Shown here piece after piece: positions 7,787 to 10,818 of a stretch of 30,543 nt of DNA; position 1 is the stretch's first letter; the number at the start of each line of letters is the position of its first letter. The notes under the pieces are model-generated. The model ran no database searches. It worked only from the letters and a program-made list of their open reading frames with translations, and was not told the DNA's origin. Location of the stretch: positions 1 through 30,543 of IMG/VR virus record IMGVR_UViG_3300020196_000163. One strand, 5' to 3'. The stretch comes from a virus. The translations under genes and the position numbers were made by a program.

Positions 7787-8764
7787 TTACGCCGTTCCAA
7801 CCGTCAGGGCGATTCGCATTGCCCGTGCCGTATCGACCGCCTTTGCGCCCAACACACAGGATGCTGCCCGATCCTCGCCGTCAAGCCGTCCATGCACATG
7901 CTGAATCCAGTTTGTCGTACTGTTTGCGGCGAGCCAAACCGAGGGCTTTGAGCCTTGCGAGCGCTCTGTATCGAACACCTTTTGCATGTAAGAAATGGCA
8001 TCGGTTGCCCTGATCAGCCTGCGCTGCTCGACTGGAGTGGTGGGGTTGGTTGGGATTTTGATGCCCGTGGTTGCCTCATAGACCGCCACCATGATTGCCG
8101 AGACCCGTTCCGAATTCACATCGAGGGCGGCAAGGGTGTCGCCTTCCGACTTGATGATTCGGAGCCGATCCCGCCACTGGCGAAGCGCATCCTGTACTTC
8201 TTCCACACGGAGGGAAAGCCCTGCGGTGTGTCGCCAAGTGTAACCGAGATGTGCATCTGCGGTAGAGCCTCCGAAGGTGTTGGCGCAAACCACGCGAGTG
8301 CAGGTAGGGTGAATGCGCAGCGGTCTGCCGTCACCGTAGCCGTTTGCGAGCAGAAGGTACTGATAGGTTTCGTCCCCACCGATCACGGTATCCTCACCCC
8401 GCAAGCCGATGAAAATGTTTCTGCCGCCTCGGAGTGAGCCGATTGTATCCACACTGGGCGAGTTATCGCCGCCTGCCAACGAATCGGCAATCGCCGCCAG
8501 TGTTTTGGGCTGAACCACAGAGTAGTTGATCCCAACCACATTGAGCACATCCTGATTGTCACTTCGGCGCAGCGCCTTATGACTGTTGATGTCCCTGCTA
8601 TCGGTTGCGGTTTGGATTGTTTCCTCGGTAACCGTCCAATCAAGCCCTACCGTTTCCATTGCCTGCAAAGCGGACTGCCCTGCCTCAATGTTCTTTCCCA
8701 AGCCATGCCATCCAGTACTGCCAACAATTCCGACTGTATCTGATTCTGTAATCTCGTGAGCCAT
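7787..8764 (-). CDS. DUF932 family phage/plasmid protein
   Basis: 325 residues from the ATG at 8764 (MAHEITESD), preceded by AGAAAGG. An in-frame ATG at 8842 is less likely because the frame between them holds the palindrome and leader hairpin and begins within the promoter. Features of the family: STGWHGLGK near the N-terminus, NYSVVQPKTLAAIADSL, GGRNIFIGLRGED, YQYLLLANGYGDGRPL and TRVVCANTF about halfway. DUF932 proteins are common in phages and plasmids, often expressed early and abundantly, but their function is unknown. This is the only gene on the minus strand. It has its own promoter, leader hairpin and terminator, and shares the promoter type of the rightward early operons. A diverged copy of one of its segments occurs in the gene at 9388. 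Confidence 0.8.
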   Translation of the reverse strand: MAHEITESDTVGIVGSTGWHGLGKNIEAGQSALQAMETVGLDWTVTEETIQTATDSRDINSHKALRRSDNQDVLNVVGINYSVVQPKTLAAIADSLAGGDNSPSVDTIGSLRGGRNIFIGLRGEDTVIGGDETYQYLLLANGYGDGRPLRIHPTCTRVVCANTFGGSTADAHLGYTWRHTAGLSLRVEEVQDALRQWRDRLRIIKSEGDTLAALDVNSERVSAIMVAVYEATTGIKIPTNPTTPVEQRRLIRATDAISYMQKVFDTERSQGSKPSVWLAANSTTNWIQHVHGRLDGEDRAASCVLGAKAVDTARAMRIALTVGTA

Positions 8765-8783
8765 TTGGCTGCCTTTCTGTTTT

Positions 8784-8798
8784 GTCCCACACGGGGAC
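8784..8798 (-). promoter_or_regulatory. 5' leader hairpin before the DUF932 start
   Basis: On the minus strand GTCCC pairs with GGGAC around the loop CGTGT, and CAGAAAGG (the ribosome binding site) follows shortly after. Three rightward small genes have the same arrangement with stem GACCC/GGGTC. The second base pair differs in a compensated way (A-T against T-A), which supports an RNA structure. Confidence 0.65.
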
Positions 8799-8810
8799 TG
8801 GTTCCTAAAT

Positions 8811-8827
8811 CTGTCAACGATTGACAG
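8811..8827. promoter_or_regulatory. Palindromic operator candidate, copy 1
   Basis: CTGTCAACGATTGACAG is a perfect 7-3-7 inverted repeat. It sits just downstream of the -10 of the leftward DUF932 promoter, about where early transcribed bases would be, a position suited to a repressor. A near-identical palindrome lies at 22153-22169 beside the promoter of the helical-protein cassette. Confidence 0.6.
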
Positions 8828-8837
8828 TTGCGCCATG

Positions 8838-8878
8838 ATCATAACCTGCCTCTTGGGAAAGTCTACCCCATTGTGAAC
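8838..8878 (-). promoter_or_regulatory. Shared-type promoter A (leftward, DUF932)
   Basis: On the minus strand: GTTCAC (8873-8878), then GTAGAC (8861-8866) 12 nt downstream, whose TAGACT (8860-8865) is the -35, a 16-nt spacer and TATGAT (8838-8843). An A-rich tract lies upstream. From that tract to the -35 it is almost identical to the promoter at 10199. Confidence 0.7.
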
Positions 8879-9003
8879 ATTTTTGCAAATCTTTTTTGTG
8901 CGTATCTATTCATACGCGGCTAGATTTGCGCTTGGCAGAGATTGCGAGATTCCGTTGGTTGCGCTTTGGCACGGAAATCCGCGAGAAAAAAGATTGACAA
9001 AAT

Positions 9004-9044
9004 GTTCACATTTAGGTTTACTTTTGCCGATAGCAGTGTAAGAT
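9004..9044 (+). promoter_or_regulatory. Shared-type promoter B (small-gene operon)
   Basis: GTTCAC (9004-9009) and GTTTAC (9016-9021) are 12 nt apart; the second overlaps the -35 TTTACT (9017-9022). A 16-nt spacer and TAAGAT (9039-9044) follow. TTGACAAAA lies immediately upstream, a half-site of the palindrome seen at 8811. It drives the operon beginning at 9095. Confidence 0.7.
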
Positions 9045-9064
9045 GGTTGCAGATCAGACACCCC

Positions 9065-9087
9065 GACCCCTAGCGGGTCAGAAAGGC
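9065..9087 (+). promoter_or_regulatory. 5' leader hairpin and ribosome binding site
   Basis: GACCC (9065-9069) pairs with GGGTC (9075-9079) around loop CTAGC, directly followed by AGAAAGG. The start codon is 15 nt after the stem. This belongs to a repeated leader family with copies at 8784 (minus strand), 10260 and 10561. Confidence 0.65.
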
Positions 9088-9094
9088 AAGGCAA

Positions 9095-9391
9095 ATGAAA
9101 ACGAAGAAGGCAGTCGAATACGATGTGCGAACCATTGACGAGTACGGCGATGTGCAGGATGTGGATTCGTTTTATGGCAGCGCACACAGCAAGCGGCAGG
9201 CAATCGAGTCCGCGCAGAGGATCGTGCGCGATGGTGGAACCGCCGTGGTCGAGCGCACGACCTACACGATTGAACCCGATGTGGAAAGATTCGTTGATAT
9301 GGAACACGAACAGATTTGGACTGGCGGCGACCACGACAGGCTGATTGCGGGTGGTTGGCGCACCGAAGGCAGCGAAGGAGGTGCAGCGTGA
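9095..9391 (+). CDS. Small early phage protein
   Basis: 98 residues, first gene after promoter B and the hairpin leader, with AAAGGCAAGG before the ATG. The protein is acidic to neutral with no Cys, signal or membrane segment. The middle (SAHSKRQAIESAQRIVRDGGTA) looks like one helix followed by strands, a common plan among tiny phage proteins. It ends in SEGGAA, encoded by the repeated junction sequence that also provides the ribosome binding site and GTG start of the next gene (GTGA overlap). No function is recognised; its place as first gene of an early operon suggests host takeover or counter-defence, by inference only. Confidence 0.6.
   Translation: MKTKKAVEYDVRTIDEYGDVQDVDSFYGSAHSKRQAIESAQRIVRDGGTAVVERTTYTIEPDVERFVDMEHEQIWTGGDHDRLIAGGWRTEGSEGGAA
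9371..9391 (+). repeat. Gene-junction repeat, copy 1
   Basis: The core AAGGAGGTGCAGCGTGA encodes the last residues (..GGAA, stop) of the upstream gene and at the same time supplies GGAGGT and the GTG start of the downstream gene. This copy and the one at 9909-9929 are identical over 21 nt; the copy at 9695 matches over 17 nt. Confidence 0.75.
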
Positions 9392-9711
9392 AGGACGGCG
9401 AAGTTACAATTACACTCCGCAGGTCTGAATTGCGAGACTTGATCGTCACGATCACTGCGATGTACGACCAGTCCGCCATGAGTTTTGAGGAGATGCAGCA
9501 TCGCTACCCGATCTTTGCAAACGGGTACGACCGACTTTGCCATCAGGCACAACTCGCAGGCGTTCCTACCAACAGCGATGAAAGCATTGACGAAGGCATT
9601 GACGCAGAGGCAGACCGATGTTCATCGCACATCGACTGCAGCGTTCGCGTGGTTTGCGCCAACACCTTTGGCGGCTCTGCCGCCGATGCACATCAAGGAG
9701 GTGCAGCGTGA
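9388..9711 (+). CDS. Small early protein with a DUF932-derived C-terminus
   Basis: 107 residues from a GTG overlapping the upstream stop, with GGAGGT in front. Residues 1-75 (VTITLRRSELRDLIVTITAMYDQSA, then EEMQHRYPIFANGYDRLCHQ) look helical and belong to an unrecognised small phage family. The last 25 or so contain RVVCANTFGGSAADAH, which matches RVVCANTFGGSTADAH in the DUF932 protein, in the same reading frame. Of the four base differences over that stretch three are synonymous, so the source may be a diverged DUF932 homologue rather than the local gene. The protein then ends in GGAA from the junction repeat. The native C-terminus may have been replaced by recombination. Confidence 0.6.
   Translation: MKDGEVTITLRRSELRDLIVTITAMYDQSAMSFEEMQHRYPIFANGYDRLCHQAQLAGVPTNSDESIDEGIDAEADRCSSHIDCSVRVVCANTFGGSAADAHQGGAA
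9695..9711 (+). repeat. Gene-junction repeat, copy 2
   Basis: Second copy of the AAGGAGGTGCAGCGTGA junction, directly after the DUF932-like fragment. It gives the ending GGAA to the upstream protein and the ribosome binding site and GTG to the gene at 9708. Confidence 0.75.
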
Positions 9712-9929
9712 AGCGAATAACGAAAGCAAAACTCATGGCGATTCGCAGGGCAGACGCATACCTGAAGTTTCTCCACTACCTTGATCGCAGGGAGTTTGGC
9801 ATGGCGTTGAGCGTTGCCAACACATGGGCGGTGACTGACACGAATGATCGGTTTAGGTCGTTGTGGGAAGGACACGCCAATGACACCTATCGACTGCTGA
9901 AAGCGCAAAGCGAAGGAGGTGCAGCGTGA
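9708..9929 (+). CDS. Small early basic protein
   Basis: 73 residues from the GTG within the second junction repeat. The N-terminus is basic (VKRITKAKLMAIRRADAY), followed by helical segments with aromatic residues (FLHYLDRREF, ALSVANTWAV) and ending in QSEGGAA. No known domain, Cys or membrane segment. The start is fixed by the GGAGGT and the GTGA overlap; upstream in-frame codons belong to another gene. It is co-translated with its neighbours from promoter B. Unknown function. Confidence 0.55.
   Translation: MKRITKAKLMAIRRADAYLKFLHYLDRREFGMALSVANTWAVTDTNDRFRSLWEGHANDTYRLLKAQSEGGAA
9909..9929 (+). repeat. Gene-junction repeat, copy 3
   Basis: Third copy of the junction, identical to copy 1 over 21 nt. 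It encodes the SEGGAA end of the gene at 9708 and the ribosome binding site and GTG of the gene at 9926. Confidence 0.75.
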
Positions 9930-10165
9930 GGTGGGAACAAAGGATCAGCATGACTCACATTTCGTTTGCCGCCTATTTTCGCACTGCATCCGATTGTTCA
10001 TTCGCTACGAACGCACTGCGATTCGCAACGAGGGAAGAAGCGGAGGGGTATGGGGCAGACCTGTACCAACGATGGCTTGGAGCAAAGGAATGGGAAGTGC
10101 GGGAAACCGATGATCCTGTCCGTCATCGGTGGGATGCGAAAGAAAGAACGGTCGTAAACATTTGA
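9926..10165 (+). CDS. Small phage protein, widespread type
   Basis: 79 residues from the GTG in the third junction repeat; an ATG at 9950 would give 71. The sequence has the pattern of a common tiny phage protein: aromatic strand (ISFAAYFRTA), FATNALRFATREEAEGYGADLYQRW, then WEVRETDDPVRHRW. This suggests a small alpha/beta fold with a conserved DDPV segment. It is the last gene of the promoter B operon, with about 125 bp to the next start. Function is unknown for the family as far as I know. Confidence 0.6.
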   Translation: MRWEQRISMTHISFAAYFRTASDCSFATNALRFATREEAEGYGADLYQRWLGAKEWEVRETDDPVRHRWDAKERTVVNI

Positions 10166-10198
10166 AAGAAAACAGCGACAAAAAAAATCTGCAAAAAT

Positions 10199-10239
10199 GT
10201 TCACAATGGGGTAGACTTTTGCCGATATTGGTGTAAGAT
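10199..10239 (+). promoter_or_regulatory. Shared-type promoter C
   Basis: GTTCAC (10199-10204), GTAGAC (10211-10216) 12 nt on, -35 TAGACT (10212-10217), 16-nt spacer, -10 TAAGAT (10234-10239). An A-rich tract lies upstream. The box region matches promoter A, and the spacer and sequence after the -10 match promoter B (TTTTGCCGATA; GTAAGATGGTTGCAGATC). Confidence 0.7.
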
Positions 10240-10259
10240 GGTTGCAGATCAAACACCCC

Positions 10260-10282
10260 GACCCCAAGTGGGTCAGAAAGGA
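10260..10282 (+). promoter_or_regulatory. 5' leader hairpin and ribosome binding site
   Basis: GACCC (10260-10264) pairs with GGGTC (10270-10274) around CAAGT, then AGAAAGG; the ATG is 16 nt after the stem. Same leader as at 9065 and 10561. Confidence 0.65.
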
Positions 10283-10290
10283 CAGGCAAG

Positions 10291-10494
10291 ATGAACAGGG
10301 CAAGCAATATCACGAGACTCATTGCGCTGAAGCGAGCGTGCGACAAGTTGGAGCAAGCATTGGATGCGGCGGAGGTGGCGTACTTCAAGAATCCAAGCGA
10401 ACGCCGCTACCAACTGCGTCAGCGATTGGGCGTGCGGTGTGATCGCGCATGGGATAAGTTGGCGACAGAGGAACTGAAGCAGCGTCATGGCTGA
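10291..10494 (+). CDS. Small helical early protein
   Basis: 67 residues, first gene after promoter C and its hairpin leader. Predicted wholly helical and rich in Arg, Lys, Leu and Ala (ITRLIALKRACDKLEQALDAAEVAYF, then RRYQLRQRLG). Net charge is basic, so nucleic acid or protein binding is possible. No recognised family. The next genes lie downstream in the same direction. Confidence 0.55.
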   Translation: MNRASNITRLIALKRACDKLEQALDAAEVAYFKNPSERRYQLRQRLGVRCDRAWDKLATEELKQRHG

Positions 10495-10594
10495 CCCGAA
10501 CGCGAGGGGCGGCAACCGCCGCCCCAAGCGTCCGAGCCAGTTGGCAAGGAATCAAACCCCGACCCCAAGTGGGTCAGAAAGGACAGGCAGATGA
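10487..10594 (+). CDS. Possible 35-residue basic ORF in the leader of the next gene
   Basis: An ATG at 10487 opens a 35-codon frame that overlaps the previous stop and ends with TGA overlapping the next ATG (ATGA at 10591). It is rich in Arg, Pro and Asn (ARGGNRRPKRPSQ) and includes the hairpin leader, so its C-terminal codons are constrained by the leader repeat. It may be a translated leader peptide or a chance frame. Confidence 0.25.
   Translation: MADPNARGGNRRPKRPSQLARNQTPTPSGSERTGR
10506..10525 (+). other. Strong GC hairpin between small genes
   Basis: GGGGCGGC (10506-10513) and GCCGCCCC (10518-10525) form a perfect 8-bp stem with an AACC loop. No T-run follows, so it is not a standard intrinsic terminator. 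It may act as an RNA stability or processing element between the genes at 10291 and 10591. Confidence 0.5.
10561..10583 (+). promoter_or_regulatory. 5' leader hairpin and ribosome binding site
   Basis: GACCC (10561-10565) pairs with GGGTC (10571-10575) around CAAGT, followed by AGAAAGG; the ATG is 15 nt after the stem. There is no shared-type promoter directly upstream, so here the leader sits inside an operon. A partial copy without the stem (GTCAGAAAGACAGGCAA) precedes the gene at 10815. Confidence 0.6.
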
Positions 10595-10818
10595 ACCCAG
10601 TATTCGATGCGTTTGAAAAGATCGGGCAAGCAATGGCAGAAGCGGAACTGGTTGCGGAAATCGCGCGATTGGATGAGGCGATGTTGTGGTACTTGAACTG
10701 CGCGAACGAAACGGTAGAGCAGCGCAAGGCTTTTGAGGCAATGCAAGCCGCATCCAACAGGTGTATTGAGATTGGAAGGGCAGCGAACCTAGCCGCAGTC
10801 AGAAAGACAGGCAAATGA
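10591..10818 (+). CDS. Small acidic helical early protein
   Basis: 75 residues, start fixed by the hairpin leader and AGAAAGG. Predicted all-helical, rich in Ala and Glu (FDAFEKIGQAMAEAELVAEIARLDEAM, then TVEQRKAFEAMQAASNRCIEIG). It resembles the upstream 67-residue protein in size and helicity but not clearly in sequence. Its last codons (VRKTGK) read through a partial copy of the leader repeat that serves the next gene, and the two overlap by ATGA. Unknown function. Confidence 0.55.
   Translation: MNPVFDAFEKIGQAMAEAELVAEIARLDEAMLWYLNCANETVEQRKAFEAMQAASNRCIEIGRAANLAAVRKTGK

Follow-up and report, generated by a model that had tools for sequence, protein, structure and literature searches.

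Four leaders in a virus record of 30,543 bases (IMGVR_UViG_3300020196_000163, analysed at its full length and referred to below as the window) place a small hairpin, H3, beside the Shine-Dalgarno (SD) sequence of the gene that follows, and the question that this locus raises is whether the hairpin is an RNA control element and, if so, how it might act. Comparison with related phages indicates that H3 is a real RNA control element of this phage family, in which the stems change in matched pairs while the hairpin, and often its loop, is kept.

The hairpin in the window and in related phages

The hairpins and the SD sites next to them are as follows.

9065..9079, plus strand: H3 GACCC-CTAGC-GGGTC (pattern match; pairing probability 0.97)
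9080..9086, plus strand: SD AGAAAGG abutting H3, ATG at 9095 (sequence)
10260..10274, plus strand: H3 GACCC-CAAGT-GGGTC (pattern match; pairing probability 0.98)
10275..10281, plus strand: SD AGAAAGG, ATG at 10291 (sequence)
10561..10575, plus strand: H3 GACCC-CAAGT-GGGTC in an intergenic leader (pairing probability 0.77-0.87 with the whole leader folded)
10576..10582, plus strand: SD AGAAAGG, ATG at 10591 (sequence)
8784..8798, minus strand: H3 GTCCC-CGTGT-GGGAC in the DUF932 leader (pairing probability 0.97 in short context)
8772..8778, minus strand: SD AGAAAGG of DUF932, 5 nt past the stem, ATG at 8764 (sequence and homology)

The first-pass annotation of this DNA described a 5-bp stem and a 5-nt loop with AGAAAGG just after them in all four leaders. 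This was accurate for the three plus strand copies, in which AGAAAGG lies directly 3' of the stem and the ATG 15-16 nt past it (3/3), but not for the DUF932 leader, where AAAAC intervenes. Its reading of the stems can be followed directly in the sequence, as three are GACCC/GGGTC and that of DUF932 is GTCCC/GGGAC, which differs from them at both bases of the second pair, and the proposed loop rule C-N-N-G-Y fits 4/4 window loops. The longest DUF932 open reading frame begins 5' of the hairpin and would place it inside the gene; however, alignment with a relative (71% identity) and the ATGGCNCAY start conserved among DUF932 relatives put the start at 8764, and the hairpin therefore lies in the 5' untranslated region. 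GACCC-N5-GGGTC was found three times in the window against 0.03 expected, a number reached in 0/100 shuffles, and AGAAAGG alone was not rare (4 found, 3 expected). The 9065 and 10260 hairpins lie within a 109-nt repeat that is 83% identical, and all three plus strand hairpins lie within a 40-nt repeat. Because the copies are repeats of one another, the window by itself is weak evidence for covariation, and so is one compensatory pair among paralogues when taken alone.

A family of related phages was gathered by scans with the head protein, DUF932 and the exonuclease. Its members share an exonuclease-Erf-ParB-helicase block plus several genes after it, and many of their early genes have a 5-bp hairpin against the SD sequence. 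The close relative L031 (also L013; IMG/VR contig 3300020214_000164) has five such leaders, with AGAAAGG directly 3' in each: three GACCC stems (loops CCAGC, CTAGC and CAAGT), one GTCCC-GTGT-GGGAC, and one GCTTC-CTAGA-GAAGC ahead of DUF932, in which three pairs are altered on both sides relative to GACCC/GGGTC. Hairpins of the more distant members differ further in their letters.

GCCGC-CNAGY-GCGGC: L067, L068, L069, L071, L074, L075, L205
GCTGC-CAAGT-GCAGC and GCCGA-CAAGA-TCGGC: L073
ACCGC-CTAGC-GCGGT and GCCGC-CAAGT-GCGGT: L035/L036
CCGTG-CTAGA-CACGG: L078
GCCCC-NNN-GGGGC: L063, L064, L066, L045
GCGGC-NNN-GCCGC: L077, L046

Support for covariation came from orthologous leaders picked by gene homology and not by the hairpin. 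A stem of at least 5 bp was present upstream of the SD in 12/12 of these, namely 4/4 DUF932 leaders (GTCCC-CGTGT, GCTTC-CTAGA, GCCCC-ACA and GTCCC-ACA) and 8/8 leaders of a ~295-aa gene, and the stem ran into the SD without a gap in 9/12, with gaps of 5 in the window, 8 in L063 and 6 in L066. The relatives thus retain the hairpin in unselected leaders while its stem letters differ, and they do not break the pairing freely, so that the covariation claimed by the first-pass annotation now stands on much firmer ground than the window alone provided. A test of 28 pentaloop leaders, whose rows had been selected for perfect stems and are biased to that extent, gave 100% pairing against 20-53% in slid controls, and 16 cells with both sides altered, compared with 2.6 in shuffles (0/500). 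The base right after the stem was A in 28/28 pentaloop leaders of A4. Hairpins 10-17 nt before the start were found at 48 of 390 family genes, compared with 16 of 467 genes of control phages. No such hairpin was seen in more distant DUF932 phages (~33% identity or less), and the feature thus belongs to the family of the window phage.

The loop is also constrained in part of the family. A CNAG pentaloop occurred in 34/86 start-proximal hairpins, 75/4420 hairpins elsewhere (odds ratio 38) and 0/38 in control phages, counts that include paralogues and related phages and therefore overstate the P-value. In one clade it stays constant over several stems, and the stems with which it occurs are GACCC, GCTTC, GCCGC, ACCGC, GCTGC, GCCGA and CCGTG; common descent of the stem letters does not explain one loop over several stems. 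Other lineages have free triloops (ACA, GTA, ATA, AAC, AAT), and loop types are mixed within single genomes. Triloops and pentaloops occupy the same place, which suggests that structure matters more than a reader of the loop.

Outside the family, the GACCC pattern in the large phage contigs L001 and L004 was set aside as chance or convergence, these being unrelated single copies with no shared genes shown. A scan for GCCGC-CNAGY-GCGGC-AAGGA matched mainly Pseudomonas phages, whose kinship to the window family is not established. In these phages and prophages (L114-L232, L239, L249, L255, L265, L278, L294) the arrangement is CCACCTTCT-GCCGC-CCAGC-GCGGC-AAGGACACCCC-ATG, mostly ahead of a ~73-aa membrane-like protein and sometimes of other genes, and an upstream CCTT could lengthen the stem over AAGG. 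They offer a culturable system with a similar hairpin.

Leader architecture and the genes behind it

H3 occurs in two kinds of leader, which are distinguished by the following elements.

9017..9044, plus strand: predicted promoter TTTACT-16-TAAGAT in the 109-nt repeat, start site expected at ~9051, 14 nt 5' of the hairpin (read from sequence)
10212..10239, plus strand: predicted promoter TAGACT-16-TAAGAT, a repeat of the 9017 promoter, start site expected at ~10246, 14 nt 5' of the hairpin
8838..8865, minus strand: predicted promoter TAGACT-16-TATGAT for DUF932 (consensus scan, 9/12 matches)
10506..10525, plus strand: H1 hairpin GGGGCGGC-AACC-GCCGCCCC, just past the stop codon of the preceding gene (fold; counterparts covary in relatives)
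10532..10549, plus strand: H2, a weak hairpin between H1 and the linker (minimum-energy fold)

Among the three predicted promoters the consensus scan returned that of DUF932 only, and the other positions were read by eye. At both plus strand window promoters the order is -10 box, predicted start site, ~14 nt and hairpin. Folded intergenic leaders have the order stop codon, GC-rich H1, H2, linker, H3, SD and ATG, and pairing in H1 is maintained through compensatory change between paralogues. The transcribed part (ATCARAC...CCCC-H3-SD) is common to the two types, whereas the promoter DNA is not; this sharing of RNA from about the transcription start argues for a role at the RNA level.

Comparison with L031 separates the leader from the genes that it precedes. 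The GTCCC leader tracks the promoter and not DUF932: in L031 it lies ahead of a different gene, and the DUF932 leader there is of the intergenic type. The genes at 9095, 10291 and 10591 had no homologue in L031 at E 1e-3, despite structural genes up to 98% identical between the two phages. Since L031 has the same leaders, the leader is more stable than the genes behind it. Its occurrence after promoters, between genes and before genes that lack a homologue in a close relative points to an RNA-level leader cassette. What sequence comparison shows is compensatory upkeep of the stem, a position at the SD, reuse before unrelated genes and, in one clade, the CNAG loop.

The window encodes a terminase, portal, major head protein, RecE-like exonuclease, Erf-like annealing protein, helicase and DUF932 protein, and the interval from DUF932, on the minus strand, to the exonuclease is filled by small genes without family matches. 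The genes behind H3 leaders are listed here.

7787..8764, minus strand: DUF932 protein, 325 aa (family match and alignment to a relative)
9095..9391, plus strand: 98-aa protein, no homologue found in the close relative L031
10291..10494, plus strand: 67-aa protein, no homologue found
10591..10818, plus strand: 75-aa protein, no homologue found

A scan of bacterial and archaeal genomes by exonuclease alignment yielded no relative, and cultured phages gave distant homologues only.

Several other repeats were observed near these leaders. Each of the three predicted promoters has a copy of AAAATGTTCAC upstream, at 8873-8883 (minus strand), 8999-9009 (plus) and 10194-10204 (plus); no other copy occurs in the window (3 found against 0.03 expected), and the sequence is likely a shared operator or activator site. 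The DUF932 leader contains at 8805-8830 (minus strand) a 7-bp palindrome, CTGTCAA-TCG-TTGACAG, which is retained in L031; it may serve as a repressor site or form another hairpin. Three consecutive stop/start junctions (9371-9391, 9691-9711 and 9909-9929) carry a different repeated start cassette, GGAGGTGCAGCGTGA, which has no hairpin, and similar junctions are present in L031, L075 and L077. A 50-nt inverted repeat, 92% complementary, joins 8248-8297 and 9645-9694, and the small gene at 9388-9711 carries in frame a piece of the DUF932 gene (RVVCANTFGGSxADAH). In the unrelated phage contig L004 (1-6071), a strong TTGACA/TATAAT promoter of its own precedes most of the small genes, along with a short leader that is nearly identical from gene to gene, typically ACATCAAAAGCAAGGAGG.

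Possible functions of the hairpin

The reading that we favor, at a confidence approaching but not reaching an even call, is that H3 belongs to a family-wide, cis-acting cassette in the 5' untranslated region that fixes either the 5' part of the message or the place where the 30S subunit lands. The unit would consist of an A/C-rich linker, the 5-bp H3 with its 3' arm running into the SD, and the start codon, placed either right after a promoter or between genes behind the two GC-rich hairpins H1 and H2. Because it precedes early genes that turn over fast, it would follow the control site and not the gene. We infer that H3 may act in cis by capping and stabilizing the 5' part of the message and/or by placing the 30S subunit on the adjacent SD, and newly gained early genes would then be expressed without delay. 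For intergenic leaders, cleavage of the transcript between H2 and H3 may occur and would yield a 5' end identical to that produced by initiation at a promoter. Phage early regions gain and lose small genes constantly, and each newcomer needs immediate expression; a cassette able to work before genes unrelated to one another, whether it follows a promoter or lies between two genes, would be a concrete answer to that need. The two separate constraints, a loop and position that are kept and stem letters that are free between lineages, yield clear predictions.

Folding gave an average H3 pairing probability of ~0.8. The predicted unpaired fraction of the SD was 0.67 with H3 allowed and 0.68 with H3 forbidden, and was higher in 21 leaders and lower in 22. 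On this equal predicted accessibility, sequestration or insulation of the SD by H3 was rejected, and H3 is thus neither a lid nor a simple insulator.

Several observations weigh against the cis-acting cassette. The predicted folds of some leaders lose H3 once longer upstream sequence is included, and that of DUF932 drops to a pairing probability of 0.01-0.06 with 85-120 nt upstream. A purely structural role explains neither the retention of CNAG over several stems nor the constancy of H3 stem letters within most genomes (0/40 stem columns variable across four paralogue sets) beside H1 stems that drift (15/40 columns variable in the two sets measured). Finally, covariance models trained on other lineages failed to recover the GACCC leaders: model R1 recovered none of the window or L031 leaders, and R2, built on a wider variety of stems, gave its top rank to the L031 DUF932 leader (E 0.034) but missed the GACCC leaders. 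Fifteen nucleotides carry too little information for a detector.

The uniformity of H3 within genomes while H1 covaries, the specificity of CNAG, on several stems, to start-proximal hairpins, and a loop with nt 1, 3 and 4 fixed and nt 2 free, as in a loop that is read, would all fit a translational operator, in which an RNA-binding protein of the phage that reads the CNAG hairpin would repress or activate early accessory genes in concert, the protein or its specificity being different in the triloop lineages. This operator is the main rival to the cassette, and we consider it possible but doubtful. In L063, L064, L066 and L077 the loop varies freely in sequence and length, the exceptions GAGAA, CATAG, TACAC, CACGC and a GCT triloop share genomes with CNAG loops, no candidate binder was identified, and the inflated P-value of the CNAG counts overstates the case. 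The specific protein operator, which the first-pass annotation suggested beside an RNA processing site, is unsupported, given the free triloops of other lineages, the mixture of loops per genome and folding that shows no control of SD access. A broader version, rather unlikely in our judgment, would have a factor encoded by the phage, or captured from the host, recognize the SD-abutting CNAG hairpin and co-evolve with stem and loop across lineages, in a post-transcriptional regulon that any gene placed behind the cassette joins. If a phage protein does read CNAG, it would constitute a new RNA-protein pair, with an early regulon that can be listed from sequence alone.

RNase III cuts T7 early mRNA into separate messages, and an endonuclease could in like manner cut at or near H2, the linker or H3 and leave the message of each early gene hairpin-ended on both sides. 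The order kept in folded intergenic leaders, the compensatory change in H1 and the fact that the two leader types have in common just the RNA that begins near the start site are consistent with such a processing site. However, a classical RNase III substrate is longer than the 5 bp of H3, and H3 occurs just as well behind promoters, where cutting would be unneeded, which makes this explanation improbable.

It is less probable still that the leaders are recombination linkers, at whose short homologies the phage exonuclease/Erf pair swaps small genes, so that their uniformity reflects recent copying. The phages do encode a RecE-like exonuclease and an Erf-like annealing protein, led genes are non-homologous between close relatives, and a chimaeric L031 leader has an H1 boundary fused to a promoter; yet copying alone cannot keep differently lettered stems paired across lineages, or H1 paired within a genome, nor can it hold the hairpin against the SD. 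A DNA-level operator, with the inverted repeat as a transcription factor binding site, would suit the two copies just 3' of predicted promoters but is hardly credible given the copies without a promoter in intergenic leaders, the fixed orientation to the SD, the spacers of 3-6 nt, the asymmetric conserved loop and the G-U pairs in L035/L036.

Comparison with known systems

No Rfam family matched the window at gathering score, or positions 8700-10700 at E up to 1, and no description of this leader element was found in the open literature, most subscription journals being outside that coverage. Intrinsic terminators (a GC-rich stem with a coding-strand T run) were rejected, as the only matches were antisense, on the minus strand, and at chance number.

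The boxB element of lambda nut sites has a 5-bp stem and a 5-nt GNRA-like loop and lies in early leaders with boxA. H3 resembles it in stem length, loop length and presence in early leaders, but its loops are CNAGY and not GNRA-like, and it sits at the ribosome-binding sites of many genes; boxA (GCTCTTTAACA) gave chance-level matches only, none near the leaders. The coat-protein operator of RNA phages likewise places a hairpin where translation begins; that hairpin includes the start codon as well as a bulged A with an ANYA loop, and H3 has neither. The SAS/ESAS elements of cluster K mycobacteriophages are likewise repeated at the translation start of many non-structural genes and have an inverted-repeat part that varies between subclusters. 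However, SAS is a 13-bp sequence, GGGATAGGAGCCC, that contains the SD core (0 matches here with up to 2 mismatches), and its authors saw little evidence that the extended repeats pair as RNA (PMC3203893), whereas pairing is supported for the hairpins of the window family.

T4 RegA, which the first-pass annotation had offered as a parallel, also controls many early genes together through their start regions. The parallel fails, as RegA sites are A+U-rich, lack structure and lie across the AUG or right before it (PMC3014915), while the window family has a GC-rich hairpin upstream of the SD. The T4 CUUCGG intercistronic hairpins (Tuerk 1988) and the mRNA-stabilizing hairpin of the gene 32 5' leader (Gorski 1985), as cited in PMC8948821, are likewise short stable hairpins in phage intergenic regions or leaders, and a 5' hairpin can stabilize a message. 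H3 loops are CNAGY, free triloops or others and not UUCG, a loop that is present in some H1 hairpins of relatives. Hairpins in phage leaders are thus already known, and what differs here is the loops of H3, its fixed position directly at the SD and its reuse before unrelated genes.

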